Source: Brachionus manjavacas (taxonomy: Eukaryota > Rotifera > Eurotatoria > Ploima > Brachionidae). Taken from it: a stretch of DNA of 64,000 nt. The DNA lies in contig JAHQIY010000003.1 of the NCBI GenBank assembly GCA_019054805.1, forward strand, positions 4,898,001 to 4,962,000. Direction: 5' to 3'. Below the pieces are notes generated by a model. The model was not told where the DNA came from. It made no database searches and worked only from the letters and a program-made list of their open reading frames with translations. The translations under genes were made by a program, and so were the position numbers. Below, in pieces: positions 6,301 through 54,635 of this stretch (position 1 is the stretch's first letter; the number at the start of each line of letters is the position of its first letter).

Positions 6301-9300
6301 AATTAAAAAAAAATTTTAATAATCAAAATTAATCTCACAGTTGTATTGTGAAATTCTAAATTTTGAAAAAAAATAAAACGATTGCAGATTATTTTTTTTG
6401 TTAGATTTTTACGTTTTTCTCAATCTGATTTTTTTTTTCCAAATGAAAAACACTGAAAGCGTTTAAAACTCTTCTTTTAAGAGAATGAATTAAAATAAGC
6501 CTGATTGTTATCTTTCTAATTTTTGAAAGAAGAAACTAAAAAAAAATATAAAACTTAATATATAAAACTGTTTCATTATTTCAGAAAATGTTCATAAAGA
6601 AAGAAACAAAAAAATGATAAATAATTAGTATTGCTTTTTAAATTATTTCAACATTAAAGTTTTATTTAAATAATAGAAAATTAAAAGGAATAAAAGAATT
6701 TTTTTTCCGATTATTTCCCGCTTAAAGTCGAAAATTTATATAACCGCACAAGTTGAAAAATTTGAACATGGGAGATACGATTCTGAGCCCAAGAGCTAAA
6801 ACTAAATTTTTGGGTTATTTGCATCACATAAAAACAAGAGAATTTGGTATCGATCATCAATTTTTAACTTTTTACATCGCCAGATATGGTTTACCCGGAA
6901 GCAATAAATAAATGAATTTTACGTTTTTTAATTTTTTTTATTTAAGACAAATCGATCTGCATTTCTCTGCATGAAACGGTATCATGAAAAAACTGTTGAT
7001 CGTTACTGCAAGAGGTAAGCAAAAATAACAAAAAATGTATACAAAAAATTTATTAAATTTTAGAGACTGGACCGAAGAAGAATCAAAGAAATTGTTAGAA
7101 CTAGTCGAATGCTATAGAGAAGGATTTTTTGTTCCTTACAATTATTGTAAGATCAATTTAGATTAAATTTTTTTTTATTTAATAATAATAATAATAAAAA
7201 TTTTAGTGTGCTATTTAAATGGAACACGGGATCGAAATAATGTGTTTATTCATCATCAAAAAATAGATCCTAATTTAAACCATGGTCGATGGACCTCGAG
7301 TGAATACCAGGCATTCGAAGAAGCCGTGCAGTACTTCTCAGCCAAAAATTGGCAGGAAATCAGCGAATATGTTGGTACTAGAACTGCTCTACAGTGTAAA
7401 GAACGCTATGAATTAAAATTTCTAAATCCTGATAAATACAAAAATTGGACCATACAAGAAGATAAAAAGTTATTGGACTTGGTGGATAAATATGGCGGAC
7501 AATGGTCAAAAATAGCTGCCTGTGAATTTCCATACCGAACAGACCATTCATGCTTATTCAGATACACTAAATTAATGAAATGGAAACGTCAGAATGAATG
7601 GTTCGAATCTCAGCCTGAAAAAATTCAAGAATTTATAAAATTCTTGTTTAAAAAGCGAAAGAGCAAAAATGACAACCACGATATCGAAATTTATACTGAA
7701 AAGGGAGAAATTGTTCCAACAACTCCAAAATTTGGTTCGGGAACAGGATTTTTGGCGTCCATGATCGAAAAAATTTTTGAAAAAAGAGACCTAGTTGAAG
7801 AATTTATTGACAAAAAAAGCGAGGGGCAACTTAGTTTAACACTATTGGCAAAAATTGGAATTTACACACCTGTTGTTACTAATTTGATTGCCAAGTACAA
7901 GAAATATCAAATGAAAAATAATGAAAAAATTAAGCTACCCGGAAAGAAGAGGGGAAGAAAGCCTAAAAGTGCTGAAAATGAAAAAAATCAAGAGTCAATT
8001 AAGACTACCAGTTTTAAGCAAAAAAAATCTTCTATTTTAGTTGAATCTGAAAGAATCAAGAGAAAATACACCAAAAGAGCAAAAAATGTACTAAGCTTGA
8101 AATCTAATAATCCAAAGTCGAAAGACGAAACAAATGTTCCATTAAGTATAAATTATTACCTGAAAAAAAAGCTATCCGGAAGAAGAAAAAGAAAAGCTAA
8201 AAATAAAAAATTTATTAGTCAAATAAATGAAACAACAATCAACGAAGAATCAAATAATAAAAGTAAAGATTTTTTCTTATCTACTAGAAAAGATATTATA
8301 GTTTTCATTCTAAAATTTTTTAATTTATAAAAGACTCGTGCAAAAATCGATTCATTGTACTTTGCTTCAAATTTTTTCTATTGTTTTTAAAGTAATTGCA
8401 TTACTTTAATTTTTTATAGAAGTTTTAGATTTATATTATGTGAAAAATGATTTACTTTAATTTAATTTTTTCTAAAAAAAGATGACTCATTTATTTATAA
8501 AAAAATGTTGAAACAAAAAATTGAATGCTTTTGTTATTTCTTGAATAAGAACTCCATACTAATTTTGAAAAATTTAAGTAAACATTTAAATGATTTTATT
8601 TTGTTTATTTTTCTGATAAAGTCTAGTTAAAAAATTAATTTACCGAAAATCATTCGAATGATTCCTTGTTTTGAGTCGAAACTTTTAAATTTTTATTTAT
8701 TTAATTTAAAGATTATTTATATTGTAGAAAAATACATGGATGTCCAAAAAAATTCAAATAACGTTTTATTGATAAAAATAAGTTTCATTACCTACACAGT
8801 ATGTATTCAATTGGAGTTTACTGATTGGTTTTTTGCTGTGTTTTCCAAATGTGTAAGTTCCAAATTAACACAAACTGAGTATGTCATTACACACATTTAA
8901 AATTTAAATCAGTGAAAATTTATTTTATTAATTAGATAATCGTGATTTTAAAACTAAAAATTTTAATACCTTATTTTAACTAAATTTTAATTATTTAATT
9001 TAAAGAACACGGTTAAAAGAGGTTTTTTTTTCACGTTTATGATAAGACTGTGGAAGCTTTTAAATGTTTTTTCTTAAAGATTTGTTTATTTTTATTTTAT
9101 TTTATTTAAAAAAAAACTTTTCATCACTATCAATAGTTAAATTAAATAAAAACCCAGCACAAAATAATCAAATTTTTTCCCCTAATTTAATAAAAAAAAG
9201 GAATTTAAATTTTAAAAAAGATTTAATTTAAATTAATAATTAAACAGCATTGAAAAATTATTGACATTAAGTGCCACGAAATTTATTAGATTTATCAAAA

Positions 9301-13600: not shown

Positions 13601-15624
13601 AGGGGTTTTAGACGATTTATATTAAAAAATCGTGAATCGATTTTTGCCTCATTTAAGATTTCCTTTAACAATATTTGTTTCAATCAGGATAACAGGAGTT
13701 AGATATAATAAGTATGTGGCTAGTTTAAATTCACACGGAAAGTGATGCTAAATACAAAAATAATCTTGAATTCTCAATAAATTTTATTGATTTTATATTT
13801 AATTTAAATCACATTCAAAGTATAACAAATGGTTGGACTTGTTAGTTTTTTTTACTTTGGTCGCTGTCATTTATAACAATAATATTTGCAGTATTTTTTG
13901 TTTCTCATTTGACTTGTTCGGCCACTAAAATAATATTTAAATCCACTTAAAATAAATGAAAGTTTATCGATTATTAGTTCCTGTTTGTCTAAAACCATCA
14001 GGTACAACTAAAACAACAGCGTTTATTTACAAGCTATTATCTGTGCTAGTCTTGACACTTTCTCAACCAGTAATTCAAAACTTTTAAGTTTGGTCAAGAT
14101 TTTCGAAGTGTTTAGCTTAATCCTTTTTTTTAAATAAAATTATCTATTTAATCCACTACTCAACAAAAAGTACTTGTAATTTGATTAGATTTTAATTTGA
14201 AATCGAACACCAAGTTAGATATTTTTATCATTTTATTTCGACCATTAACATTCGGTCAATATTAAGTCCAGTTTCTGAATCAACAACCATCACTACTTTG
14301 AATGAATTTAATAATTATTTTTTTTTCATTTATTTAAAGAGTGAATTTAATAAAAAAATTGATTTTTCAAATCAAAAAAATTGAACAATTCAATTCAAAT
14401 TTATTTTATGATAATTTTGTTTTTACTTTAATTTTTCAAGTTTAAAGATTTAAGTGACTGTATACAATGAGATGGAATTTTGGAAATGGATCTATTAAAT
14501 GATAATCAATAGCTCAGAGTCTATCAAGAGAAAATACCTTGGGAAAAATTGAGGCTATTTAGGCCTATTTTTGAAAAATCTTTGATCAACGAATAAATTA
14601 ATTTCTAAATAGAGAAATTAAAGGAATTCTTTTTTGATCGATTGAGTCTTAAGGATAAATCGTCTCTTACCTTCGATTCATCAATGTAGGACTATTTTTT
14701 GTCATGATTTAAATTGAAAAATATGGTCTTTGATCTTTTCAAAATTGTCACTTGAATTAATAAAAAAAAACTTAGAGATTAATTAAAAATATTTTCAACT
14801 AAACAATATCAAGATAAGACACACTTTTTAAAAGATGAAAATTTTTTCCCAAAATTGTTTTAATAGGTATTTTTTAGTCGGCTAAGACTTAAATTTACTT
14901 TAAGCTTTAGTTCTTTAGTCTAGAGAGAATTTCAAATTTTAAACGCTCTAAAACAGAACGACTTTTCTAGTATTAATTCCATTTTTTTTAAGTTTCTTAA
15001 TTAAGAGGATTAATGAACATCGAAAAATTTCGGATACAAAAAGCATTTGTTTTAGCAAATTAAAATTGCGTCTTAATTTTGATACAAAATCGAATTTTGA
15101 CCAAATCAGGATAGAATTACTATAATTTAATTTTTTAGCATTATTTTGTAAAATCACGTCAATTTTTTTCTCATATTTATCGGGACAATATTTACTTAAG
15201 AAAAAGATAAAAAAATTATTTCAAAATTTTATTTTAATTCAAAATTAGTACCAAATACTCGTAAAACAATTAGACCACTTAAAACTATTTATTTCACGGA
15301 TGGTTTCTCTAGAGGTTTTTAAAGTGATTGTAAAAAAATTCCGGAAATTTTTTTCAAACATCACTTTTTACGGTTTTGTTTTTTTTGCTCTAAATGAAAC
15401 ATAATTGAAAATATTTCTAGTACAAAATCGATTTAGATTGATTTGAAATCAATAGATTTAATCTTATTTTTTATCTTTAAAATTTTTTTTAGATAGACTT
15501 TGTCAATTATTGAAAATCGTCAAGAATAGAAATCTATTAAAAACAAATGACTTAGAGTTTTTTTTTGTTGTACAAAAATTATCTTATTGAGATCGAAAAA
15601 TTCTAGTTCACAAAACTATCTATA
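10689..15624. other. Intergenic region, no gene seen
   Basis: About 4.9 kb between SNAPC4 and the Kirrel-type gene. It is very AT-rich. The only recognisable item is a short reverse-strand LINE-A 3' end at about 12855-12910. The open frames near 13.25 kb and 15.0 kb are hydrophobic or lysine-rich, have no recognisable domain and do not join by splicing into anything longer. Confidence 0.5.
12855..12912 (-). mobile_element. LINE-A 3' end relic
   Basis: On the reverse strand this reads TTATTCTGAAGGAGCAATAGCTTGATCTATACAAA in pieces. It matches the LINE-A terminal motif CTGAAGGAGC...AGCTCGGTACAG with several changes, including a loss of pairing in the second arm. It is a diverged solo 3' end. 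Confidence 0.5.
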
Positions 15625-18141
15625 ATGCTTTTTGGCACTAGCCTAATAAATTTGGTCTTGATAAAATTTGCGATCTCGCTCGAGATCCAGAGCAATCCGG
15701 ACGATCAATACACCAATTTGAATGGAAATGTGATATTCCCATGTCTAATCAAAGATTACAAAGAAGGAATTGATTATGTTGAATGGTGTAAGAACGATTT
15801 TTGCACATGGGGTCGGACCATTCGTCTGAGCGATGACCGGCTCAGGTACAAAAGTCTTCGAAGGTTCTACATAATTGGCAATCGAAGCAATGGTGAATGG
15901 AATTTATTCATCCAAAACATAACTGCTAATGATGTTGGAAAATACAAATGTACAGTAACTCGTAGAGTGGACAAAAACGTTTTTAAGATAAATTCAAGTT
16001 CAGCAAGTCTTAGAATAATGAGTAAGAAAATGCATTTTTTACTTAGAATTTTAACTTAGAATCATTTTTTATAAAGAAAAACCAACCAAAATTGAATTAA
16101 ATCATCAAAATTCGGTGGAGATCATTTTGGATCAAACTGAAAATATCGAATGCTTGGTACATAATTCAGTGCCTGAGCCGAACATAAATTGGTTTATGAT
16201 GGACACAGTTGTTTTTGAAGAAATCACTGAAGCAAATAGCTTAAATAGGCTCAAAAGCATAAAATTGGTTGAAAATTTGCATTCGAGTTTTCAAATTTCG
16301 ACATTCAAAAATTCTGAATCAGTTTTTATCAACAGACTTAGTTTGACAGGTAGCATGGATTTGGCAAGAAAGACTTTAATAGCTTTAGTCGAGCACCCTT
16401 TACTCAACAAACCTGTACTAAAAGCCGTTCAAATGAACCTAAAATGTGGGATTTTAAATTAAATAAAAAAAGATAGAAATTATTGTTTAAATTTAGATCC
16501 GCCTATTTTGTCTATTGATTATGAACCAAAAGAGCCTTTGGAAGAAGGCAAAACATTCACCTTTTATTGTAAATCAGAGTCAGTTGATGATGAAAAAAAT
16601 CATTCCAAAAAGTTAGATTTTTACTTTAAAAAAATAGAATAAAAAATATTTTAAAATTTTTAAGGAATTTTTTTCATTTGAACGAGAAATTTAAATTTTA
16701 CAGCATTAATGGGTCCATTAAACTAAGATTAAATCGCAAAATGAATTCAAGTTTATTAGTGTGTGAAGATAGTAATCTAATTGGAAAAAGTATTTTGAAC
16801 TATTCTATGGACATATTATGTATTTTTTTTTAAATACCGAAAAATTCAAATCTTAATTTTTTTAATAAGATCCACCGAAATTTATAAATAAACCAGACTC
16901 AATAGTTGTGATCAGAAACAAAACGGATGGAATTTCTTTACACTGTTCAGTTGATTCCAATCCTAAGTCTGAAATTCGGTGGGTCAAAAATTTTGGTAAA
17001 GTAATTCATATTGGTGAAAGGCTCAATTTGAGTGAAAGTGTTGACGGAGAATACGAGTGTCAGGCGCATTCAGGAAAATTTCCCCCTACTTCTTCCAAAG
17101 TTTCACTGATTACTGAGGGTCCACCTTTATTTATTGGCCAGGATACGTTTTTTATCAATTCTAAAAAAGAATTAGACATTTATTTTAATATTTTGTCAAG
17201 TCCTTCTTATGAGGTAAATCAAAAGATTGAAATAAAATCATGAGATTTGAGCTTTTTTTTTTAGTCAGGACCAATTTGCTTCAAAATGGACGAAAATAAC
17301 TCAATGGTAGTCAGTACTGTTTATCCATCTAAAGAAAATGAAAAGTTCAGTCTGTTGCAAGACGATTTTAAAGAGCTTAAAATGTCTACTAGATTCAAAA
17401 TGGTAGTTAGAGAGGCAAATAGTGAAGATGAAGGGTTTTATAATTGCACAGTTGCCAATGAATTTGGAAATGCGTTCTATGGATTTAAAGTAAAAAGAAA
17501 AAGTAAATTTTTTTCAAATTTAATTTTTCCAATTTAACTATTTTTCAATCATTAGGCGAACCGATCAATGCTTTGCTGACTTTAGCGTTGATAATAATTT
17601 TTTCGATTTTGATTTTTTTTTTAATTTTGTCTATTTTTGCTTTGATTTGTATGCAGCGAATCCGCAAAGATAAAGTGACCAAAGCTTTGCCAAGTGTTTC
17701 AGATCATTCTGGATGTGAGCACAATGACAAATCGCCTCAACAGTATCAAATTTATACATGTGAAAATGCGGTATTTAAAGAAATGTCAAAAAATTTGTCA
17801 GATGTAGATTTTATAAAATTACTAATAAATAAATATTATTTTTTTTTAATAAAAGGATAGAAAAATTGATAACTCATTCAAAAAACAGTCAAATCAGATA
17901 TCGCTGGTAGTCGAACAAAATTCATTAGAATCGCTAAGTGAATGTGTTAAATTTCCGTCAGACACTCAGAATTTAATATTCATCGACAAATTAAAATCAA
18001 TAGGTCAATCGGATCTAACCGGTAAGTACTTATAAATTAATTTCTTTATTGTAATTGTTCTAACATTTTCACTTGAAAATAGCTAATGGGATTTATCAAA
18101 AAGCAAATATATATTCGTCAAGATTTCAGACAAATGTCTAG
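15625..18141 (+). CDS. KIRREL: Kirrel/nephrin-family immunoglobulin cell-adhesion receptor
   Basis: Kirrel proteins are type I membrane receptors that pair cells in filtration, muscle and neuronal contacts. The exons are 15625-16021, 16077-16445, 16497-16611, 16665-16819, 16870-17213, 17265-17502, 17556-17803, 17856-18021 and 18083-18141, giving 696 residues in frame. A signal peptide (about 1-19) is followed by five Ig domains. Ig1 has C40, W54 and C109 with DVGKYKC, and the family-like GNRSNGEWNL before it. The domain joints carry YPP (exons 2/3 and 4/5) and EGPP, as in Kirrel. The transmembrane helix is at about 545-572. A cytoplasmic tail of roughly 120 residues ends in T-N-V, a class I PDZ ligand like the T-H-V of vertebrate Kirrels. 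One oddity is that Ig2 has C158 but alanine at 235, where the second disulfide cysteine is expected. The order and number of domains fit Kirrel better than nephrin, which has more Ig domains. Confidence 0.85.
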
Positions 18142-20349: not shown

Positions 20350-20520
20350 AAGATTATGGAACTGGATCAGGACTTCCAATCAGGTCGGAAGCAGCGAGTA
20401 GCAATATAACAGTATGTGGTGGACTGGAAAGAAGTCGCTAGTGCAGTCCCTCAGGGTAGTGTTCTAGGCCTACTCTTGTTCGATATGTACATCAACGAAG
20501 GCTTTCTTCATCCTTGGCCA
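20350..20520 (+). pseudogene. Non-LTR reverse-transcriptase fragment
   Basis: The frame from about 20416 reads VDWKEVASAVPQGSVLGLL then LFDMYINE. This is the VPQGSVLGPLLF.IYIND motif of CR1/L2/Jockey-type reverse transcriptases. Flanking sequence is degenerate and stops follow. It is a short dead piece on the plus strand, upstream of and unrelated to the pyruvyltransferase gene. Confidence 0.7.
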
Positions 20521-21372
20521 GCTAAGAAGAACGTTCAGATTCTAGACCATCTTCATGTCAATATAAGATTTGATGAGTACAAACTCACTTGTATTGTGTG
20601 TTTGTAGTTTAGTCTACTAAAATTACTTTAATATTTTCTGAGTAAATTAAACTAATTTAATTTAATGAAAAAAATGTTTTGTTCAAAATAAAATAAAATA
20701 AAAATTGAAAAAACAAAATTTAATTAGTCATGATAATTTCCAATATCTATATTTATTTTTTTTTTATTTTAGTAAAATACCACAATTTAAAGAAATATGT
20801 ATTGAATGTTTCCATTCAAATATTTATACCACAACTATTATCTCTTAAATATTTAAAAAAAAAGTGAATCAGAAAATCTCACTTTTAAGAGTTTTTATTT
20901 TTTATCTAAAAAAAACAAATATTAACAATAAAAGTCTATTGGATAAGGAAATTTGTGAAAAAACTTTTGATTTTTACAATAATTTAGAAGATATTTGAAT
21001 TACCAATATTTTTAAGTAACACTTTGAAATAAAAAGCAATAGTAGTAGACACCATTTTGAAAATGATTTTATCAAATTAATTTTTATCTTTAAATATAAA
21101 GTATTTCAATTTTACAAAAAAAAGTTCAAAATAAATTTTAATTTAAAAAAAATTATTTTAATTCTAACAACTTAAATATTTAACAAAATTATATTCAATG
21201 GTCGAAAGCGACAAACTTTAAAAAAAGCTATAAAGTCGAGTAAACAGAGACTGCTATGGCCAGATAAATTTAATGACTAGTTAACAGGCCGCATATACGA
21301 TTCCAAGCATTATTTTTAAGTGAGGTAAAAAACTAAATGGAGAAGAGGAAATTATAAGCATTATTTAAAAAA

Positions 21373-23390
21373 TTAGATAATATTTATTCTTTTTAATAGT
21401 TTGATGGCAATTTTTGCGGCAGTTTCAGGATTGTTGGCATAATATTCTTTCAGAAATTTCCTATCACATTCTTTTTTGTTTCCAAAGGCAGTGGTCCGAG
21501 TATTTAAAATCTTCATATATTTCTCATTTATAATAATGTGAGGACGTCCGATCAACAACGAAAAAATGCTGGCATGCAATCGGTCTGTAATTATAACTTT
21601 TCCTTGTGAAAGAATCTTGTTGACTAAATTTTTTCTCATTATTGGAATTGCGGTTAAATTTTTTGTTTTATTATCTTCATAATCGAACCAATCTTTTTCC
21701 ATATACTTAATTTTTGAGAAATATTTTTCATAAGCCTCTTTCCAAGTACTTTCAGCAAAATTAGATTCTTTGTCAGTTCTGCGTAAGATGAAAACATCCA
21801 AAATAGGCTTGGAAAATGGTTTCAAGCTTCCAATCATAAATGCCATATCAGGAACAAGAATTGTTCTGGTATTGATAAAGTTCTTAGCCGCAAAGTCAAA
21901 TGATTCTCTCGATCTTGTTGATATTGTAAATTTGTTGTGTGCAGAAAATGTCTTCTCATCAAATTTTATAAGTTCTTTATCTTGATAATTTATTGTTTGA
22001 GGAAAGAGTATAATTGTATTGTTGACAAATTTTTTTAAAACCTTTTCACGAAAAATTGTACCTCGACGCCAAAGATCACCAAAATTGCCTCCTCCATGTA
22101 GAAATATAATTTCAATTTCTTTTATATCTTTCGATTTATGATTGTATGATTTGATTGTCAAATTTAACTTTTTAATTAATATTTCTTCACCTAACCTTTT
22201 AGAATAATAATCAAGAGATTTAAAAGTTATTTAAAAAAGAAATACCAAATCAATGAATCGCCATAGTTTTTATGTAGCGGAATATAAAATAAGTGAACTT
22301 CTTTGTTGTGATAAGAAAAATTGTTGTAAATTGCAAAAATTTCCTCACCAATTTTTTTTAGACATTTTTCTCTGTTGAATTCACTCGAGACCTTATTTTT
22401 GACATCATATTTTATTTCCGAAGGCTTATACAAAAATAAATTAAAAAAAATCAAAACAAACAAGAATGTCAAAATCTTGGAAATTTTTTTCATCTTTTCT
22501 ATTTTAAACTCTTGTTTAATATTTTTATCATTTGAAATTTTGTTTGAAATTGAGTACAAAAAAACACCAGAATCAGCAAGGAGCATGCCAAAAAATTGAA
22601 GTATAGTAAAATTTTTGGGAAACAAAAAAAGTGAAGTCATTACAGTGACTATTCTTTTAAAAATATTTAAAATTGAATGAGAAAGTGGTCTTATTTTAGA
22701 GAGAACAATGAATGAGAAAAAATTATAACTAAAGCTTCCAAATCCACTGATCAAGAGGAAAATAAAAGCTTGCTCATCATAAGCTAAAAAAATTTTTTTA
22801 CTTTCAAAAAAAGATACTTTAAAGAAGAGGAAAATTAAACCACAAACCAATGAATAGAATGATATTTCTATGTACAAATTAGTTATTTTATTATCACCTA
22901 GAATAGTTTTGGCGAGAATAGATCTATTTGCGGTACAAGTATTTGATAAAAGAGCAGATATTAAGGCAACATAATTGTAATTTATTTCTTCGATCACTGT
23001 CATCGAAATACCAAAAATAATTGGCAGTACAGATAGGCATGTTTGAATGGGATAAATTTCATTCTTTAAAAAATAAGAAAATAGAATTACAAAAACAGGT
23101 TCTGTAGCTTTTATAATGTAAGTAAATGAAACAGATCCTTCGTTTATTGATAAATTTGTGAAAAAAGATGCACTCAAATTAAAGAAGCTAATTAAAATAA
23201 TTTGAATTGGATGTTTTTCAAAAAAATAGCCTTTTTCTTTTTTGAAAATATGCGGTATTGCAAATATAAGTCCTGATAATGTTAAAATAAAAGTATTGTT
23301 GGTGCTAAGTAGAAATTTTTTTCCGAAAATAGCTCCTATAATGGTGAAAAAATACCATAAAAATATATTGAAAATCAAAAAAAAATCCAT
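21373..23390 (-). CDS. Fusion of phosphoenolpyruvate/triose-phosphate translocator and polysaccharide pyruvyl transferase
   Basis: The two exons (23390-22246 and 22195-21373) are joined across a 50-bp GT-AG intron and give 655 residues. Residues 1-285 are a TPT-family (DMT superfamily) transporter with about ten hydrophobic segments. They carry VSFTYIIKATEP (K94), a NRS..AK motif (R156) and a KR pair (K245-R246), matching the phosphate-binding Lys/Arg set of plastid phosphate translocators. A further hydrophobic helix (about 303-320) follows a lysine-rich stretch. Residues 365-655 are a PS_pyruv_trans domain, with NYGDS..W.GEE (375-386, split by the intron), HGGGNFGDLW (415-424), FPQT, VPDMAF, ILRRTDKE and TDRLHA...L.G.PH (585-601). 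Such enzymes move pyruvyl from phosphoenolpyruvate onto glycans. The splice restores both the frame and the NxGDS...W.GE motif exactly. Acting in the Golgi is inferred. The family is scarce in animals, so gene transfer is possible. Confidence 0.85.
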
Positions 23391-23654
23391 TAGATAGAAT
23401 AAAATTCCAAAGTTAAAAAAAAGCTTATAATTGTTTCTCCTTAGATTCCTTTCAGTTTCTGAACGTGATAAATCTTCAAAAATTTTAAACAGATATTTTT
23501 TGTTGCTGAGTTTTTGTTATCTAAAGACTAAAGACTCTGAATACATTAAGAAGATTTTAGTAGACATAAACAGAATTTATTTAAAAAAAATTGAAAACCG
23601 TCTATTAGCAAAATCGTTTCAAATAAATTGTGTATTCGTTAAAACTCTTGATAC

Positions 23655-31419: not shown

Positions 31420-32217
31420 CTAAAAGCTAACTGAATTAGTTCTCTTGGTCATGTAACTTTCCAAGTCATTATTCAATTTGGCCACATTGGTTCCTTGATT
31501 TTTCTGTCCATTTGAATTTCTATAATACATTTTATTTCGAATTATTCTAGTTTTAAAATTAGAATGTTTAGGCGCTTCTCGTTTGATGTTTCCATCAACT
31601 TTAAAAACCAAAAATAAATAAACATATTTAAATTTTAACATTGGCTCTAATCGGCGTTGATACATTGGTATTCATCAATCAAACCGAGTTAGTTTTAAGC
31701 CAGAGCATTCTTTTTTGAAAAAAATAATACTTTTAAATCGTTTTAATCCAGAGCTTTTATTGTTCATATTTGAAAAATTATTTCGCAGTCTTTGATTTAC
31801 CTGGTTTTGGTGCTTGTTTTTGGTATTAAAATTTGAACCATTGTTATTTTCAACAAGCTGCTTTCTTCTTAATCTAGCTGAATCAATTCGAGTTTTGGGG
31901 CTCAATCTGCCCTTGTAGTCCTGTCTTAAACTTATTTTAAAAGGTGGTTTATTTTCGCTGAATTGTCCAGAACTTAGTCCTTGTTTAATACTTCTTTTCT
32001 TTAATTTTAATGCAGCCTGAACAGATGGTCTGTTTGCCATTTGGATAGCTAAGCGTCTGTTTTTAGCACTAGCTTTTTGTCTTGTTAAATTTAAAGCTCT
32101 GTCATTAGAATTACCATTAGAAGCTGTTGTTGGTTTAAGCATGGCTAATTTAGTGAATCGGTCATGTAGAGAAATCTTTGTAGATGCGGATGCAGTCAAT
32201 TTATTCTGATTCAGCAT
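31420..32217 (-). CDS. CHTOP: Chromatin target of PRMT1 (CHTOP) homologue
   Basis: CHTOP (FOP/SRAG) is a nuclear mRNA-export and chromatin factor that works with TREX and is methylated by PRMT1. The exons are 32217-31731 and 31598-31420; the splice is GT-AG in phase 1 and yields 221 residues (human about 248). The N-terminus has KISLHDRFTKL. Residues 49-72 contain ASAKNRRLAIQMANRPSVQ then AALKLK, nearly identical to the human protein. The C-terminus keeps LNNDLESYM (204-212), like LDNQLDAYM. The middle differs: instead of the long RG/GAR repeat that PRMT1 methylates, it is rich in N, K, S and scattered R with few RG pairs. Thus the ends are conserved and the methylation zone is reduced. Assignment is firm. 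Confidence 0.9.
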
Positions 32218-33124
32218 TCTGGCTATCTGTTCACCGAAGTGTTGTATTCTAAATTAATTGACGAAGAGGGTTTAATAGACACCGAAATATTTATAAAATA
32301 ATTTTTTCCAAAAAGCTAGATTTTACAAAAATACTAGAACAAATTTTAAATATATTTTCATAATTATCTTGATTCTTTGCAATATAATGTTAACCAAGCG
32401 AGGAAGATTTTTTAAATATGAATATTGAGCTAAATTAGTGTGATTTATAAAAATAAATTGAAAATTCTTAGAAAAAACAAATATTTCGATTAAAGCATTC
32501 AAAAAACAAAGGTTTTATTTAGAAAAAATAATAATGACCAAAAAAAATCATCAAAAAATATTTTTCTATACTTAATATGGATCGAAAATTATGTTTTTTT
32601 TTACTTATAAATTGTAATATAGAATTCAAATAAGTTTTTGACAGATGCTTATTAAAAAACAGAACTAAAGTATGCTAATGAATCTGTTTATTTCAGAGAA
32701 ATCACCCATATATTCCTTAGAAAATGTGAAATTTGACGGAAAAGGCGAGTTTTTACCATTAGAAGAACTAAAAAATACGGTAAAAAAAGAAAAATTAATT
32801 CTTAAAAAAATTTAAACTTTTTGATGGATATGAGCAAGCTGCACCACGAATTTCATTAAAACATCACAAATTCATTTAAATACTTATAATATTACTTTTT
32901 AATTAAAAAATAACTCAAAAAGAATATTAATCTTTTCAAAACTAAATATACTTCCAAAATGGAGTGTCTATTGACAAACCATGTTACAATATAATGATGT
33001 TTTGAGACACAATGTTTCCAAAATTAAATATGTTGCAAAAGTTTTGGATTTTTTTTTTCAAATCAATTGTTGTATTAAGTTGAAAATGATGTGTGAAACT
33101 CGGTACAAAAAATTTTTTTTGAAA
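32218..33124. other. Spacer upstream of CHTOP with an orphan open frame
   Basis: AT-rich spacer. Its only notable content is the 47-codon plus-strand frame at 32672-32815. From 32820 to 33124 I see nothing until the (TAA)n tail of the CR1-type LINE. Confidence 0.4.
32672..32815 (+). CDS. Orphan exon or small open frame
   Basis: An ATG-initiated 47-codon frame. Its middle reads SPIYSLENVKFDGKGEFLPL then EELKN, with balanced composition unlike the surrounding A/T noise. A TTTATTTCAG acceptor-like site lies within it (ending near 32696) and a GGTAAAAA donor-like site near 32779, so it may be an internal exon of about 83 bp. No partner exon was found nearby and no family is recognised. It may be a relic of a lost gene. 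Confidence 0.3.
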   Translation: MLMNLFISEKSPIYSLENVKFDGKGEFLPLEELKNTVKKEKLILKKI

Positions 33125-33129
33125 AATTA

Positions 33130-36100
33130 GAGAAGGGATTTTAATAATAATAATAATATATATAAGCTACAGCAAGACTAGCTTGCGGAGGTGGCCTACT
33201 AGGAGGTCACCTATGGTAGCTCCTTGCACATTACACATAGAAAGTACTGCAAAAAGAAAAACTGTTTAAATTTATCTTTTTGGTCAAAATAAGAGTAAAG
33301 ATAGAAAAAATTGTAAAAATAAAACTTTTTATAAATTTTATAAATATGTTGCTGTTCATGATTGTTAACTGGACCGGAAGGCATCGTATCGGTTCTTGAA
33401 CTTGTTGATCGAGTCGGCGTCTATGACTGTAGCTGGCAAGGCGTTCCACTCGTTGACTATCCTGTTGGTGAATGTTTTTGTCCTTTGAAGACATTTGGTA
33501 GAGGCCTGGCAGGACGGTCTTCTCGCATGACCTCTGGTACATCCGGAAGGTCCGGGTTGGGAAAGTGAACTTGCGGGAACCGGGGGGTTCACCCAGCTCA
33601 CATCGTTGATGCCTTTGGCGAGTTTGAACATCTGGATCAAGTCTCCACGTACACGGCGCTCATGAAGGGGAGTTAGTCTAAGGATGGCAAGACGGTCTTC
33701 GTCGCGCCAGTTTCTAATGCGGGGAACCAGTTTGGTAGATGCTTATTAAATGATCCAGCATCTTTGCGTCTTTCTTGCCAGAGGGGACCAGACCACCGCG
33801 GCGTATTCCAGGTGGGGTCTTACGTAGGCACAATAGAAGGTCCTGCATGTATCTATGGTTCAATATCTAAATGATCTCTTCAACTGGCCGAGTATTCCTA
33901 TAGCTCTGTTTACTTGATTTTTAATATGAATAGAAAATTTCAAGTTACGTGAAAACGTGACTCCCAGATCCTTTTCTGTGTCAACGAAAGCTAGGGCACT
34001 CCTGGACTCGTCTTCCCCCATCAGCAGTTCGTATTTAGCGTAGCTGTTCTTGCCAGACCTGCGTAATTCCATCGCCTTGCTTTCTCACATTGAAGAGCAT
34101 AAGTCACGTGTTCGACCACTCAGAGAGTGCGTCGAGGTTATGTTGCAGGGTTGATAGGTCACTGCTGCTTCTTATTGTGGCAATCAGTTTACTGTCATCT
34201 GCAAATTGTTTGACAAGGTGGCTGACCGCCGCTGGCATGTCGTTGATGAAGATGACGAACAGAAGCGGACCGAAAACCTTGAGGGACACCACTGGACACA
34301 TAAATCCAGTGAGCAATGTGCTGACTCATCACTATCCGCTGACACAGTCTCCAGTAAATTAGTTACTACTGACTTCCTCAGGACAAAACTGTGTTGTTCA
34401 GGAACGAACGCTTTGTTGCTGTAGAGGTGATCCATCATGACGTCTCTTACCATGCGTTCCATCAACTTGCAGGGGTTTGATGTCAAGGAGATCGGTCTGT
34501 AGTTACCAGGGGAACTCATGCTTCCTTTCTTGAAGATGGGGCTGATCTGAGCGAGTCTCCAAGCGTTTGGGATCCTGCCGCTGGTGTACGATCTGGTGAA
34601 GATAGTGCTTAGGACCTCCTAAAAGGCATTGGCGCAATTTTTGATTACGTAAGGGTGGATACCAGCCATGCCCGGCGATTTCCTGGGGTTAAGGCGCAGT
34701 ATGTACTTGTGGCTGGCGAGAAGAAATCAATATCCATTTCATGCTGGGGACTTGCCGTGAGCTGGAGAGGCTGAAGCTTACAGACCCTGAAAAAAGATAT
34801 TTCGAACTTAAAGATGACATTTCTTACAGCTTCTTTTACCTGCCTACAGATCGAGGAATAAGCAGTCCTCAACTCAACTCGACGGTCTGATCTAATTCGA
34901 AAGTAGATTTTGTTCTTCATCCTGGTAAACACTTTGATTTTGGGGTTGAACCACTTGTGATTGGGGCGCTTGCGGGCTTTTGGCACTTGGTTGGGGATAG
35001 CCATCGAGGAGGCAGCGAAATAGGACTTGATTATCCCATCATATGCGACATCGAAGTCCTTATCTATGGGGTTGGTGCTGTCGTAAACGAGGGTACTGAA
35101 GAGCTCGTAGTTGCCACGGCGAAGGACTGGTCGGGGGGATACGACAGAAGGAGTATGACGGCCAGTGCGGAGCTGGTAATTCCAGTTAAGTGTTTCGTGC
35201 AGGCCGTCCTTCTCAGTAAAACCAAGGATTGGTCCTTGTGCTACTCGGACAACTGTGGCGGGATCGCTTGTGACCACGAGATCTAGGATATTGGTTACTA
35301 GCGTTGGAAAGAGAACGTGTTGGGTCAGAAAGTTCTTACCTAGAGTGTCCAAAAACTTCAGATGATGCTGATGCATCTGTTGATCTCAAAGTTGAGCTCT
35401 CGATCGGCGTATGGGGGCCTATAGATGTACCCAACAAGAAAAGTTTCGTCGTTGCTCTTGACGTTGCACCATATCTGCTCTATCCTAGTGTTGGACAGGA
35501 CCTCTTCGCTTACCTCAAACCTCTCTAAGTCACAGCGCAGATATATAGCTAAACCTCCTCGGGCCATTTCCCTATTCTTGCAGGAGAGCTTGTAGTTGTC
35601 CAATTTTCAATTGCTCAGGGAATTGAACCATGTCTCGGTGATGAGGATTACGTGAGGGGATTTGAGAAAGGCAGATAGAGAGTTGAATTCGTTCCATTTA
35701 TTAGCAAGAGATGTGGCATTAGTGTAAAAAAAGTTCAAAAATTTGGTTGGATTACCGTTGGATTCCTTGCTGCTTGAAGATGAGGTGTGATTAGTCGAAG
35801 GAGATCTCCCGGAACTCGTTCCACCTGTTGCCCCAATTAAATTTCTTGCCAGCTTTTGGATGACCCTGAGGTTTGACGCCGTAGCGGTGCCTTCCAACAG
35901 AATCGCTCTTACTTTCGCTGAGGAGGTCATTCCGTTTGTTTCGTTCGGTCCTTAGTTCTCGATCCAATGCTCTTTCGCTGGGGGATTTGTCTGGATTGAT
36001 GTACACATTCTTTAAGTCGTCCGTGCCCCGAAGGTTTTTGGCGTTGCGTAGCGCCGTGTGCTTGCTGGATTCCTCATTGAACTCCACCACGATCATGTTG

Positions 36101-38115: not shown

Positions 38116-39415
38116 TTAATATTTTTTTATCAAAAAATGCTCACGATTGTCCCAGTTTCGCTTTATAACATCTTGAACTTTAGCTCTTGGTCCTAGTGTA
38201 TTAAAGTGTATACCAAGTCTAAGCAAAGTAGAATTCTGACTTATTGAATTAGCTATATCCATTTCAACTTTATTTCCTAGGATTTGAGCCCTCTGATTTT
38301 AATTTTAATTTAATCTTTAAATTTGAATTCTAAATCTTACTTGATTACTCATTCTTAAATCAATTAAAGTTTGATTTTTAAGAGTAGCTCTGCAAATGTC
38401 AGCAATCACAAATCCTGTCAACAAATTGGACTCTATATTTAGAGTCAGGAGGCTAGTGTTCTCCTCCAGCATTTCTACGATTGTCTAAAAGTAAAAAATA
38501 AATTTAAAAAATTTTAAATTTAAATTTTTTTTTTACTTTAGCAACAGAATCAGGCATCTCGATGTTAGCCATACTTAGATTTTTACAGTTTGTATTTGTT
38601 TTCATGGCTTCAATCACTTGCTTCATTCTTTCATGCGAAATATTCTGTCATAAATAAATTAAACAAATTAGATTTTTTACAAAATTATTTTTTTAAATAA
38701 TTAAACTTTTTTTGAATAAAAAAAATTAGTATAAAAAATAAATTCACTTTAATGTTGTTCAAATTTAGACTAGATAAAGATGAATCGTTTTCTTGAAGCT
38801 TTTTGATGCTTTCTTCGACATCAGTTTTGTTATCAGGCTCTGGTGGCACAAATTTTAGAGGCTCGGATTTGGCGGCCGCATTCCACCCACCAAAGCTTAT
38901 TCCAAGGTCACTTTTTTCAGCAGCGTGAAACTGAACTTGATTGACCAAGCCAGTGAATCCTAAAATGGCTGCTAATTCAACAATTTCGGCTTCAGAAGCG
39001 CCGCTTAAAATTTCATCCCATTCAGTTGTCACATGTTCCAATTCTTGATGTTCTTCTTCAACCGGTTTCGGAGGTGGTACCCAAACTTTACCTTTAATTT
39101 CTTTTTTGAATTCCTTGTTTTGCTCCCAATCTTTTTCATTTTTGCCTTGGTCTTCTAGATATTTGAGCAATTTTTCGCGATCATAGGGTCCGGTTGGTTT
39201 TTTTTTTGTCTGATCACGGCATCTTTCGGATGGTGGTAAGTGCGGATCCTAAAATAAAACTTTTTATTAAAAACAATTTTATTTATTCAGAGTTTATTCA
39301 CATCTGGATCGACTTCGCCAGCAAGACATTCGAGTTCTTCTTCTGTCAATTGGGAAAGTAAAGCGTCGATTTCATCAAAATCGACATCGGAAAAATCTCG
39401 TTGTTTCAGACTCAT
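38116..39415 (-). CDS. TMOD: Tropomodulin
   Basis: Tropomodulin caps actin pointed ends together with tropomyosin, in muscle and the membrane skeleton. Five exons (39415-39302, 39248-38748, 38644-38537, 38484-38341, 38292-38116), all phase 0, give 347 residues (vertebrate TMOD about 350-360). The N-terminal half has the first tropomyosin/actin site (DEIDALLSQLTEEELECL), PTGPYDREKLLKYLE, GKVWVPPPKP, and the second site (ASEAEIVELAAILGFTGLV). TDVEESIKKL and LNLNNIK start the leucine-rich-repeat half. The repeats follow in exons 2-5: NLSMANIEMPDSVA, LLTLNIESNLLTG, LIDLRMSNQ, and LGNKVEMDIANSIS then LLRLGIHFNTLGPRAK. It ends with the capping C-terminal helix. Introns are short. The phase-0 structure and complete domain order indicate a functional gene. 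Confidence 0.92.
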
Positions 39416-42512: not shown

Positions 42513-44760
42513 CTTTAGGAAAGCAAACTGGCAATTCTTTAGCGAGATTTTAAATTCTCTAATAGTTAATATCACTGAAAGTCCCCTCACTATTGATCAA
42601 CTAAATGATAAAATTACAGAAAAAATCATTTATGCATCACATAAAAGTATTCCTTACCTTTCTCAGAAGATCTACAAATCCAGTCTTCCCCCGGACATTG
42701 TTAATTTAATTAAAGAACGTAGGAAAGTAAGAAGAAACTTCCAAAAAACTCGCTGTCAAAAGCTCAAGCAAAAATTTAATCAACTTACATTTGAATTAAA
42801 AGTCTCTTTAAAAAAATTCTGGAATCAAAATTGGTTTGATTTTATCGAGAAGATGGGAAAAACCCACTGACAAGTTGACCATTCTGGAAAGAAATAAATA
42901 AATTTAGATCAAAAAAAGGATCAAATTTAATCCCAAATTTGATTTTAAATGACAAGGAATTCAAAACTAATGAAGAAAAGGGAAAATGCCTTGGAGAACT
43001 CCTATCTTCAATATTTAGTCCTAATTCTGATTTAATAGATCTTGATAAAGATTTCGAAATACTTAATTCTAACTCTGAATTTTTTAGAAATTATGATCAG
43101 TGTAATTTCAATGATCCAATTTGCTTAAATGAATTAATTATAGCTGTAAAAAGATTGAAAAATGAAGCGGTACAGGATCTGACCAAATTCATAATTTGAT
43201 GCTAAAAAATTTACCAAGAAATTCATTAATAGAAATCTTAGAACTTTTTAATTTATCTCTTAGAGAAGGTAAAGTCCCGAAAGCGTGGAAAACTTCGAAC
43301 ATTACTACGATTCAAAAAAAAGCCTCTTCTTTACAAGATCCTTTAAATTATAGACCAATTAGTATAACGAGTTGTTTAGGAAAGCTCCTGGAACGCATAG
43401 TTTTTTCAAGATTATACAATTATTTGGAACAAAATTCACTCCTTATCCAGGAGCAATCTGGATTTAGGAAACACCGGCGAATATCAGATAATCTTTTCTT
43501 TTTAATTAAAAAAAAATTGTGGAATCATTTAATAGAAAAAAAAGAGTTTGCAGCCTTTTTTTTTGATATTTCTAAAGCCTTTGATAGGGTTTGGCATGAA
43601 GGTCTACTTTTTAAATTGATTAAAATGAATCCACCTCATTACTTGACTAACTGGATTAGATCCCTTTTAGATAGTAAGACATTTAAGGTAAATGTGAATG
43701 ATCATCTGAGCGAAGAATATCAAATAACTTCAGGTGTTCCTCAAGGCTCAGTAATTAGTCCTTTTTTATTTAGTATATATATTAATGACATCTCAAAAAG
43801 AAACAAAACAAATAATGAATACTCTCTGCTTTTCGCAGATGATCTAGTTACATTCTTCATTTATAACAAAAAAGGGAACCTAGAAAATAGGATTAATAAA
43901 TACACCAACGAACTAGAACAATGGCTTATTAAATGGAAAATGAAGATATCAGTTGAAAAGTCGTGTTCAGTAGTCTTTTCTAGGTACAAAAAAGAGGGTG
44001 ATAATCTAAACTTAAAAATCTATGGAAACAGAATAGTGAGCCAAAAAGAAATCAAGTTTCTTGGTATAAAATTTGATTCTAAATTAAATTTTATTATATT
44101 AGTGGACGAAATTAAAGAACGCTGCAACAAAAGGCTAAATATTATTAAGATATTGTCAAACAAAAAATGGGGTCTCAATCAAAACACACTAGGAAATTTA
44201 TATAAATCTTTAGTCGGATCGATTTTAGACATTTCTTTTCCTTGCTTGAATTCATTTTCAGAAAATAATATCAAAAAACTACAAGCAATTCAGAATACAG
44301 CAGTCAGATCTATTATCAAGTTAAAATATGATACTCCTTCCAACATGTTGCATCATGAGGCTTTTAATAAACTTAAATTACTAACAGTCTCAAATCGGCT
44401 TTGTGAGTTGAGTGAGAGATATGTTGGGACAGGACTGAGCCATTCTATTCCATTGGTTATTAGACTGGTGGAGGAATACAAAGAAGGTTTCGAATCAAGA
44501 TTTATTGAATACCAAACTCCATTGTGTTATTGCTACCTTAAAATTTCTTCTTTTTTCCCTTAACAATCAATTTTTTAAAAATACGTATCCTTTAACTCTC
44601 TAGTTCAATTTCATTAATTTTCCTCTATTTTAAACCATTTTATTACATTTTATTTTTTTAAATTTTATCTATCTTATTTAACTTTATTTTATTTTGATTT
44701 TTTATTTTAATCTGAAGGAGCTTTTGCTCGGTCCAGAAAACAAATAAAAAAAAATAAAAA
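42512..44760 (+). mobile_element. LINE-A, 5'-truncated, with reverse transcriptase
   Basis: This is the longest member of the LINE family whose 3' ends are scattered through the window. It begins inside the linker before the RT (NWQFFSEIL..., LPPDIVNLIKERRKVRR) and lacks the endonuclease. Two frameshifts (about 42866 and 43175) and stops precede a long intact frame at 43196-44563 (455 residues). That frame has NYRPISITSCLGKLLERIV, FFFDISKAFDRVWHEGL, SGVPQGSVISPFLFSIYIND, the catalytic FADDLVTFF and KFLGIKFD. There is no RNase H domain. The 3' UTR ends with the hairpin motif CTGAAGGAGCTTTTGCTCGG and an A-rich tail. It abuts the MULE relic. It is a Jockey/CR1-like non-LTR element; the clade is uncertain. 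Confidence 0.8.
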
Positions 44761-51873: not shown

Positions 51874-53265
51874 CTAATGAGTAAAATAATTGTCAATATT
51901 CATGCGCATATTTTGCAAAAGGTTCAATGGCTGATAAGAGTTATTGGTCTGAGTCAAATTAGAATGTCTGTCATTGCGCAATTCGCGTAAATCTTCGTCA
52001 ATCTTTGGTCGTTTTGACTTGGCAATTTCATTTTCTTCGTGGTTTTCTTCAGCTTTGATGTATGGTCGTTTTTTGGCCGGCAATTTAGACGCCAAGTCTA
52101 AATTCTGTTTAATCACTGATTTCTGAGGCAGACTGTCATTTTTCTGATTTTGATTTTTTATTTTGCACGCAATTGAGTCATCTAGTTCCGAAGCTCCGTT
52201 TACAAACATTTGAAGAGCCAAAAGCGGATGATTGAGCTTTTCTTTGGAATCAAGTGAAGGCGATGAGCACGACATTGTTTTTGTATCTTTTTTTTCATGG
52301 TCTACTTTATTTTTTTTTTGAGGCACACTTCCAAACTGATGAAACTCGACTAAATGTTCATTCAAGTCTTTTTCAGAGTAGAAAAACTCACCACAATTAG
52401 TGCAAATAAAATCAATTTGATGATTATTTTTTAAATGTTGAATAAGTTCGATTAGCGGTGGCAGAGAGGACTGTTCGTGGAGATTTTTTTTACAAATTTT
52501 ACAAGAAAAAATTTTGGCATCTGCAGAAGCACGAGGTGACACAGAATTTTTTGACCTAGTCAAGTCGACACTACCAGGACTTACAGGGGCGTTTTTCTGT
52601 AATTTTCCATGCGCAAATGCTGGTTTGGCCTTTGGTTTAGGCGAAAGAGGTCGCTGTAATGTCTGATTTGGATGAAACCTGGAAAAATGGTTGAATTTCA
52701 GCATGTGGAGACTTAGGTCGTCAAGAGTGTCGAAGGAAGCCGAGCACTCGAGACATTTTAAAATTTGTGAAATAAAATTATTGTTCCTTGAATTATTGAC
52801 CCATTCTTCTTGACCACGCACCATTTTGTGCGTGAGCATCGCTTCATTGCCACCGGCCACCGAACGCTTAAAGTTAGCCTGCTTTAATTGTTGCTTAAAA
52901 CCTTCGCTACCTGTGCACTCACTTTTTGATTGTGGCTTCACAGCTGGCTTGTTTTCATTAGAGGAAAGGATTTTTTCCATCGAATCCCTAGACAAACTAG
53001 CCTGGTCGGTTTGCTGTGCGCTGGCACTTGGCTCCTGCAGCCCAAAGTTCGGCTGATGCTTTTCGATCGCCTTTTCATGCAACTGGTTTTGTAGTTGATA
53101 CTGACACTGGTATAAAAATAAATTTAGAAAGTCGTGTTTGGGCTCATTGGCACCATTTAGGAAGTATTTGAAAAAATTCATCATTTTGTAAAAGTCGTCA
53201 GCGTTTTGCATGCTGAAGACTGGATTTGTTTGGTATGCTAGAAAATTTTCTTGATCGTTTGACAT
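51874..53265 (-). CDS. Teashirt-type C2H2 zinc-finger protein
   Basis: A single-exon frame of 463 residues; the start is the first ATG at 53265. ZF1 (171-193) is C-x2-C-x12-H-x5-H: QILKCLECSASFDTLDDLSL followed by HMLKFNHF. This is very close to a teashirt family finger (QILKCMECGSSHDTLQQL...HM...GHF). ZF2 (255-282) has an unusual 18-residue gap between Cys and His. ZF3 (288-309) is a normal C-x2-C-x12-H-x4-H. A VDLTRSKNSVSP segment (about 233-244) resembles the PIDLTKSK (CtBP-type) motif of teashirt proteins. Basic KKRPYIK and KSKRPKIDE patches suggest nuclear import. Teashirt proteins are developmental repressors, usually about 1000 residues with a homeodomain-like region in vertebrates; this one is much shorter. 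The family call rests on ZF1 and the DLT motif. Confidence 0.65.
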   Translation of the reverse strand: MSNDQENFLAYQTNPVFSMQNADDFYKMMNFFKYFLNGANEPKHDFLNLFLYQCQYQLQNQLHEKAIEKHQPNFGLQEPSASAQQTDQASLSRDSMEKILSSNENKPAVKPQSKSECTGSEGFKQQLKQANFKRSVAGGNEAMLTHKMVRGQEEWVNNSRNNNFISQILKCLECSASFDTLDDLSLHMLKFNHFSRFHPNQTLQRPLSPKPKAKPAFAHGKLQKNAPVSPGSVDLTRSKNSVSPRASADAKIFSCKICKKNLHEQSSLPPLIELIQHLKNNHQIDFICTNCGEFFYSEKDLNEHLVEFHQFGSVPQKKNKVDHEKKDTKTMSCSSPSLDSKEKLNHPLLALQMFVNGASELDDSIACKIKNQNQKNDSLPQKSVIKQNLDLASKLPAKKRPYIKAEENHEENEIAKSKRPKIDEDLRELRNDRHSNLTQTNNSYQPLNLLQNMRMNIDNYFTH

Positions 53266-54635
53266 TTTTAGTTTAATTCGGTTTTATAAATGACAAAGTG
53301 GCGTTCAACTGCAGTCAGAGTGCTTCTAATTTATTGCTTGTGTGGATGACATTTAAAAAGCCATTTTGTTTTATTCAGATCTCTTCTTTATTTTATCTAA
53401 ATTATTAAAATGTCATTAAAATAAGTATTTTGAAAATTTTATAAATTGTCAAATTTCGTATTAATTATTTCAATTCAATCAACAATTAGGAATGAGCCTT
53501 GGTATTACTCTCACTAATTTGATTATGAAACATTTAAAATGTACCAAAGCCATTTGGCAAACTTAAACAGCCAATTCTATTGCAATGGTTGAAATTTTTC
53601 ACAATTTTCACTTTAATTGCTAAATATGTGGATATCTAAGTTGACAGCTTAATCAGATGCGAAAATTTTTGAATTTTTTTTCTGATATCGACAAAAACAA
53701 AAACCTGTATTTATACACCTTGATTGAATTATATTTTTGGTTTTGGGTACTTCCGATTCGATATTTGTTTGATGGTTAATTAGACAAGACTTTATGTTTA
53801 AATTTTTATCATGAATATACATCTTTTGAAAGCTATTTTAAAATATAAGAGTCAATTTCATTTAATTTGATATTTATTTGGCAAATAAAAATGCCAATTA
53901 CAAACAATGGAATATTATTGAATGCTTAAAATTTTGCCAAAAGAGAACGTGTCTATAATTTCATTCATGGTAATTATTGGCAATTGATTGTTCAATAAAA
54001 TGTATCCTCAATTCTAACTCGAAATTTTTAGAAATATTTTAATCGGAAAAACAAGTGAGCCCAACTGATGTCGCTTCTAATTAGCCAATTTTAAAGTTTA
54101 GAGTTTTAAATTAAGATTTTAATTAGATTTTTGAGATAAACAAAAGAAAAAATTCGACTTGGCAACAAACTCTTTAACAATTTTATTTTATATTGGCTCA
54201 AAAAAACTCTTATCTTAAATTATATGCGTCATTAGGACCGACAAAAGAAAAAATCCTCAAACCAATTTATGGTAAATGAATGGTCAAAAAGTTTTTCTTT
54301 TTAATGTCTGTCTGAACCATAATTTTTTTAAACCTTTTTTGAAAATATTAAATAAATCTAAAAATAAATTGTATATTTTTGAGATCAAAACAAGATTGAA
54401 TCAATTTGTTACATTCGCTTATTTGTATATCTTTATCGTACATTAGCTTTATTTTGGATTAAAAAAATGAATTAAAACCAAATTTATACAGAATTGAAAG
54501 CTCAAGGTAAAATGAGCTAAATGGAATAATGGAACGATTGGAATCATAATTTGTTCCATTTAGATTTAAAAGTAGAAAAAAATTTAAAAAATTGACTCTA
54601 AAAACTTACAAGTTCCTCTATTGCTTTAATTTTTC

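Follow-up and report, generated by a model that had tools for sequence, protein, structure and literature searches.

Computational analysis of the window, the whole 64,000-nucleotide stretch of Brachionus manjavacas DNA under study, revealed a minus-strand gene for 655 residues that almost certainly is a single spliced unit and that joins a TPT-family membrane carrier to a pyruvyltransferase related to Pvg1. The checked active-site residues of Pvg1 that concern phosphoenolpyruvate (PEP) or catalysis are all retained, and an extra hydrophobic segment stands between the carrier and transferase domains. We propose, with a probability of roughly 0.6, that the protein is a PEP carrier that feeds its own lumenal Golgi pyruvyltransferase; with a relative of Pvg1p joined here to a TPT carrier, this is the simplest reading. 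What is new is the covalent union of two known families, and its occurrence in an animal. We know of no other donor transporter that is covalently joined to the transferase using the donor. The gene is a candidate for an enzyme of animal glycan pyruvylation, its architecture gives a handle on whether donor supply in the Golgi is channelled, and the fusion is itself evidence on which substrate this TPT-family carrier, uncharacterised in other respects, moves.

The spliced frame begins with an ATG at position 23390 and ends in a single terminal stop, with none internal. Exon 1 covers 23390..22246 and exon 2, including the stop codon, 22195..21373. The features of the gene, all on the minus strand, are as follows.

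22246..23390, minus strand: exon 1, encoding the TPT-type carrier, a linker, an extra hydrophobic helix, a stem and the first part of the pyruvyltransferase as far as codon 382, which the intron splits
22551..23366, minus strand: TPT domain (Pfam PF03151), residues 9-280
22428..22484, minus strand: residues 303-321, predicted to form an eleventh transmembrane helix and preceded by a loop that has seven Lys/Arg and three Asp/Glu
22362..22364, minus strand: C343, candidate first partner in a disulfide resembling C68-C373 of Pvg1, its position extrapolated past the aligned part
21523..22268, minus strand: PS_pyruv_trans domain (Pfam PF04230), residues 375-606, interrupted by the intron
22257..22259, minus strand: D378, equivalent of Pvg1 D106 by alignment, in exon 1
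22196..22245, minus strand: GT..AG intron of 50 bp inside the transferase domain, placed by join scoring (other local introns, 52 and 103 bp)
21373..22195, minus strand: exon 2, encoding the rest of the pyruvyltransferase, with the stop codon
21913..21915, minus strand: R476, equivalent of Pvg1 R217 (modelled PEP contact) by alignment, in exon 2
21574..21582, minus strand: R587, L588 and H589 in TDRLHA, with R587 and H589 equivalent to Pvg1 R337 and H339 (PEP contacts by modelling or docking), in exon 2
21511..21513, minus strand: K610, equivalent of Pvg1 K361 (docked PEP contact) by alignment, in exon 2
21466..21468, minus strand: C625, candidate second half of the Pvg1-like disulfide, its position extrapolated past the aligned part

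The carrier and transferase domains

Only TPT and the broader EamA passed their Pfam cut-offs in the carrier half, TPT with an E value of 2.6e-43 (148.9 bits against a cut-off of 30) over profile positions 7-291 of 291. The model for plastid phosphate/PEP translocators, TIGR00817, gave an E value of 3.9e-31 and 108.7 bits, under its cut-off of 317.9 bits. Among solved structures, 5y78 ranks first (E 5e-19, 29% identity); its deposited name is that of a putative hexose phosphate translocator, and we take it to be GsGPT, an algal plastid GPT. The other solved relative found for the carrier, SLC35B1, matches weakly (E 0.0057). We assume that the substrate site of GsGPT is formed by residues H185, T188, K204, Y339, K362 and R363 and that His185 is the position that discriminates between substrates. 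All six fit chain 5y78 at one offset, 89, and they map here to S75, T78, K94, Y222, K245 and R246, five of the six being kept and H185 being replaced by Ser75. The preliminary description had seen the Lys/Arg positions of plastid translocators in the first half, and K94, K245 and R246 indeed match these GsGPT residues; the KR at 245-246 presumably occurs in animal SLC35E1 too. Judged from profiles and alignment, the carrier is a TPT-family member with its presumed phosphate site intact that lies outside the plastid subfamily. It shares with plastid phosphate, PEP and hexose-phosphate translocators the TPT profile and these phosphate-site positions but differs from them in being fused to an enzyme, in starting at the first helix, in Ser75 and in its sub-cut-off TIGR00817 score. 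A simple hydropathy scan of residues 1-281 gave nine hydrophobic peaks, and a polar tenth helix is supposed near 138-156. A structure model of the carrier half, built from the single sequence, had a pLDDT of 41 and was discarded.

TPT-family carriers have several substrates, PEP included, and specificity for PEP is not readable from the carrier sequence; membership of the family leaves the substrate unfixed. We consider it probable that this carrier moves PEP, by analogy with the needs of its transferase partner and with fission yeast, in which the Golgi enzyme Pvg1p is described as depending on separate PEP transporters, Pet1p and Pet2p (PMC4872226; PMC10435577), the precedent of separate proteins that the preliminary description had rightly invoked. 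By description, Pet1p and Pet2p have the task proposed here, the transfer of cytosolic PEP to the Golgi lumen for a pyruvyltransferase (PMC4872226), but they are stand-alone proteins, whereas the present carrier is fused to the enzyme.

The alternative that survives best, although we regard it as unlikely, accepts both the fusion and a lumenal enzyme. It has the carrier moving a different cargo, either some other phosphorylated metabolite or a nucleotide sugar destined for the acceptor glycan, while PEP enters the lumen through a separate carrier. Both halves would in that case work on the same glycan, with no channelling of the donor between them. The variation of substrate among TPT carriers, the serine at the presumed discriminating position and the shortfall of TIGR00817 are consistent with such a cargo. 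However, a shared substrate best explains why a PEP-using enzyme is joined to a PEP-carrying family, the residues T78, K94, Y222, K245 and R246 of the presumed phosphate site are retained, and SLC35B1, as the sole other solved relative found, is a weak match.

The transferase half matches PS_pyruv_trans with an E value of 1.8e-25 (90.9 bits against a cut-off of 25.3) over profile positions 1-278 of 280. Both profiles with which the preliminary description had proposed to search the spliced protein score above their cut-offs, and its assignment of the second half to the pyruvyl transferases from the motifs HGGGNFGDLW and TDRLHA agrees with the PF04230 match, TDRLHA holding R587 and H589. By sequence, the top solved relative is Pvg1 (5ax7; E 5.8e-31), with a pairwise identity of 33%; numbering in the 5ax7 chain equals Pvg1 numbering minus 53, a relation derived from the alignments and consistent for every named residue. 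Pvg1 residues H101, N103, D106, R217, R337, H339 and K361 are all identical here, and H373 and N375, the equivalents of H101 and N103, sit in exon 1 alongside D378. Roles of the Pvg1 active-site residues, including modelled or docked PEP contacts, are described in PMC4872226 and PMC10435577, and the D106A variant is reported to have nearly no activity (PMC4872226). Among 80 bacterial homologues, R476, R587, H589 and K610 are kept throughout (80/80), N375 and D378 in 79, with one gap each, and H373 in 73. An AlphaFold2 model of the exon 2 part, computed with 46 bacterial sequences in the input, had a pLDDT of 88.5 and a pTM of 0.86; its first match in the PDB was 5ax7 (E 2.3e-12, TM 0.75 by query length) and the next protein was 6x1l. 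In this model, the exon 2 part of the transferase has the Pvg1 fold.

Two other Pvg1 residues that were compared are not kept. Tyr165 is replaced by W424, with Trp at this place in 67 of the 80 bacterial homologues, and His168 by Gly427, where 51 of the 80 have His and none has Gly. In Pvg1, changing H168 to Ala or Cys is described as raising activity on LacNAc, which His168 hinders (PMC4872226), and in the sponge Microciona pyruvate is described as sitting on the Gal of a Gal-GlcNAc-Fuc unit (PMC7828597). Because the hindering histidine corresponds to Gly427, we predict that the acceptor may be Gal-GlcNAc (LacNAc), as in the pyruvylated unit of Microciona. Arguments from Pvg1 to the acceptor are weak because the relative nearest by score among the matches listed is bacterial, and further relatives from bacteria may act on different acceptors.

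Membrane topology and the proposed mechanism

Segment 303-321 has a mean KD hydropathy of 2.13, on par with the carrier's own helices, and the best 21-mer around it, 302-322, has a simplified insertion energy of -4.9 kcal/mol. The same hydropathy scan also marked 501-519 (1.21 against a threshold of 1.2), and by the energy measure the best 21-mer past residue 330 was 584-604, at -0.6; we take both as false because they lie within the folded enzyme, 501-519 in the soluble Pvg1 fold. Golgi carriers of the superfamily have their N- and C-terminus both in the cytosol. With both carrier ends cytosolic and one extra helix, the rest of the protein would therefore lie in the lumen. A lumenal enzyme is thus predicted from the extra hydrophobic helix, and we regard it as likely by analogy with Pvg1, whose structure is described as fitting a Golgi protein of type II (PMC4872226).

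The region of residues 322-655 contains two cysteines only, C343 and C625, near either end of the domain. A gapless extension was needed to relate them to the disulfide C68-C373 described for Pvg1, because the aligned part of Pvg1 stops short of its cysteines, and by this extension they are offset from it by about three residues at each end. Among the bacterial homologues, a Cys within 8 columns occurs in 13 of 80 at the first place, in 11 of 80 at the second and in 1 of 80 at both. The bacterial Pvg1-type polysaccharide pyruvyltransferases have the catalytic residues in common with the protein and are nearer to it by score than Pvg1, but 79 of the 80 differ in lacking Cys near both disulfide places.

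A transferase that stays in the cytosol, with 303-321 not spanning the membrane, would use cytosolic PEP directly and have the carrier as an anchor only. This arrangement would fit the charges around the eleventh helix, which by eye differ little over 15 residues (net +3 before, +2 after), and the sequons of the predicted lumenal part (357-561), which at 5 against 2.8 expected (P 0.13) show no enrichment above chance. We consider it highly improbable, given the strong hydrophobicity of 303-321, a cysteine pair close to the Pvg1 disulfide places and the type II Golgi topology that the Pvg1 structure is described as fitting (PMC4872226). The sequon count was dropped as an argument for a lumenal enzyme, the P value of 0.13 not being significant.

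In the mechanism that we infer, a single animal gene would give rise to a Golgi membrane protein whose TPT-family PEP carrier has ten helices and both ends in the cytosol. The eleventh helix would cross the membrane and hold the ketal-pyruvyltransferase, an enzyme of the Pvg1 type, on the lumenal side of the Golgi. The carrier would import cytosolic PEP, probably against phosphate that the enzyme sets free, and the tethered enzyme would add a pyruvate ketal to the terminal galactose of glycoproteins or glycolipids. To the fullest form of the proposal, a self-supplying glycan-pyruvylation machine of an animal that has donor carrier and transferase in one Golgi polypeptide, owes its tuning to LacNAc ends to the Gly that replaces His168 of Pvg1 and is, as far as the literature searched shows, the first enzyme candidate for animal pyruvylation, we would give even odds. 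Chemical work has revealed pyruvylated glycans in the sea hare Aplysia and in sponges (PMC6801904, PMC6994554), and a role in cell recognition is implicated for those of a mollusc and of sponges (PMC6801904, PMC6994554, PMC7828597); excerpts of these three papers name no animal enzyme for pyruvylation. Among the matches listed from the open-licence literature, neither an animal pyruvyltransferase nor a carrier-transferase fusion is reported, and no open-licence article on a pyruvyl transferase in a rotifer or Brachionus was found. A published similarity network took in only proteins of 250-600 aa (PMC6801904), a size range that would have excluded a fusion of 655 aa.

Genomic setting, relatives and known systems

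The window contains no N and has a GC content of 26% overall, against 27% in the fusion coding sequence, and codon usage of the fusion correlates with that of five neighbouring frames at r 0.84, a coarse value with frame ends set roughly. The following neighbours bear on the origin of the contig.

38485-39248, minus strand: part of a tropomodulin gene (PF03250) with introns of 103 and 52 bp, 15 kb from the fusion gene
15607-17857, plus strand: immunoglobulin-domain frames (Pfam) with a membrane segment seen by eye, a membrane protein in several exons

The tropomodulin frame matches PF03250 at 4.1e-34 and its best PDB entry at 8.3e-32. The sequence points to an animal contig because the tropomodulin and immunoglobulin-domain frames share one gapless stretch, and bacterial contamination was rejected on the strength of the intron and the animal neighbour genes. 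Foreign sequence in the assembly, derived from a microbe or from algae eaten by the animal, or a gene copy that is no longer functional, might be suspected from the bacterial nature of the transferase relatives among the matches listed and from a reverse transcriptase frame (43166-44560) on the same stretch. We judge this very unlikely, since the gene contains an intron, shares its gapless stretch with the two animal neighbours, has codon usage similar to that of adjacent frames and retains an intact frame with the seven checked Pvg1 residues that concern PEP or catalysis.

Other contents of the window were recorded alongside. The reverse transcriptase frame, on the plus strand, matches PF00078 at 7.7e-40, and remnants of non-LTR reverse transcriptases were recognised by eye only in a frame at 34187-34618 (minus strand) and a small one at 20410-20607 (plus strand). 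The block 32001-36000 has a GC fraction of 0.40 against 0.26 for the window, and frame 34648-35385 within it matched no Pfam family. Frame 7167-8327 (plus strand) carries Myb DNA-binding repeats (1.7e-24) and is perhaps SNAPC4-like; frame 51877-53283 (minus strand, 469 aa) has weak C2H2 zinc-finger matches and is possibly teashirt-like. No tRNA and no Rfam match at gathering score was found in the window.

A genome scan yielded at least 305 relatives of the transferase, of which the best 80, bacterial by titles or bins, were kept. The closest among the matches listed, the bacterial locus L001, has up to 36% identity (tblastn) and 167 bits against 111 bits for Pvg1, the two scores coming from different databases. 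Six frames longer than 500 aa, out of the best 80 bacterial homologues, were scanned and had no transporter domain. At L056:2986-4581, a bacterial pyruvyltransferase frame continues with a part that matches a methyltransferase family weakly (PF13489, 2.4e-4, under the cut-off) and is possibly another fusion. In a transferase tree of 82 rows (80 bacterial, Pvg1 and the window protein), the window protein and Pvg1 form long branches without a firm place. Constraining the two as a clade was not rejected (p 0.717), with a log-likelihood 5.5 above that of the free tree, which does not establish a clade. Placing the transferase by tree was given up.

Four scans of viral contigs, insensitive ones that used 2-6 short peptide patterns, matched 10, 3, 220 and 600 stretches, none of which was confirmed. 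Weak relatives of the transferase occur in 9 phage and 166 plasmid records, all below 60% identity, and the 9 of 9 phage and 20 of 166 plasmid rows listed have names of pyruvyltransferases or lack annotation. As far as annotated, a homing endonuclease lies beside two of these pyruvyltransferases, in three phage records. The fusion did not turn up in a second genome of the collections searched, which include almost no eukaryotes.

Among known systems, Pvg1p of Schizosaccharomyces pombe resembles the present protein in family, fold, the seven active-site residues and a membrane helix ahead of the enzyme, but it has a single anchor helix and no carrier, and H168 and Y165 where Gly427 and Trp424 stand here. 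Putative pyruvyltransferases of giant viruses, such as Mimivirus L143, provide a parallel in that the fibrils of these eukaryotic viruses are described as carrying pyruvate ketals (PMC9614988); compared by description only, L143 differs in belonging to a glycogene cluster, in an account that mentions no carrier (PMC9614988). The HGT-chimeras of arthropods are likewise animal genes described as built from host and foreign parts (PMC13389597), and the words 'pyruvyl', 'triose' and 'rotifer' are absent from the main text of that paper.

The splice junction

Unspliced, the minus strand holds two stop-to-stop frames that differ in phase, 23516..22227 and 22230..21373, and removal of the intron (22245..22196) fuses them. 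The intron lies three residues past the N-x-G-D-S motif, and its length is ordinary for this sequence because the tropomodulin introns here measure 103 and 52 bp. We enumerated 80 GT..AG joins of 30-250 bp near the junction and scored each with a profile of the 80 bacterial homologues, from which the co-aligned rows of the window protein and Pvg1 had been removed before profile building. The reported join came first with 248.4 bits against 214.3 for the runner-up, a lead of 34 bits, while the unspliced frame scored 15.6; it is also among the 7 of 80 joins that give a frame longer than 600 aa. Taken by itself, the exon 2 frame matches PS_pyruv_trans only from profile position 43 onwards (83.8 bits); after splicing, the match begins at position 1 (90.9 bits), and that to Pvg1 (PDB 5ax7) improves from E 1.5e-26 to 5.8e-31.

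These results confirm what the preliminary description had claimed of the gene. The coordinates of its 50-bp intron, said to join two domains into a 655-residue frame, are exact and leave no internal stop; the rebuilt motif, given as NYGDS..W.GEE, reads NYGDSLIW|LGEE across the junction; and its view that the fusion is no artefact of adjacent genes is borne out by the place of the intron within the transferase domain and by the rank of the join. Because the active-site residues are divided between the exons, we reject two adjacent genes, and neither exon by itself could encode a functional transferase. A carrier gene that ends in the intron next to a separate pyruvyltransferase gene, or a mis-predicted splice, is scarcely credible: the first frame, unspliced, does stop in the intron at 387 aa, but the intron cuts the transferase just past the catalytic Asp, the frame of exon 2 by itself lacks the first 42 profile positions and has a stop just upstream, at 22230, and the other 79 joins all score at least 34 bits lower.

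If the intron is retained, the frame ends five residues past W382. The 387-residue product would have the carrier complete and the eleventh helix, but the start of the enzyme only, and a transporter-only form could arise in this way.
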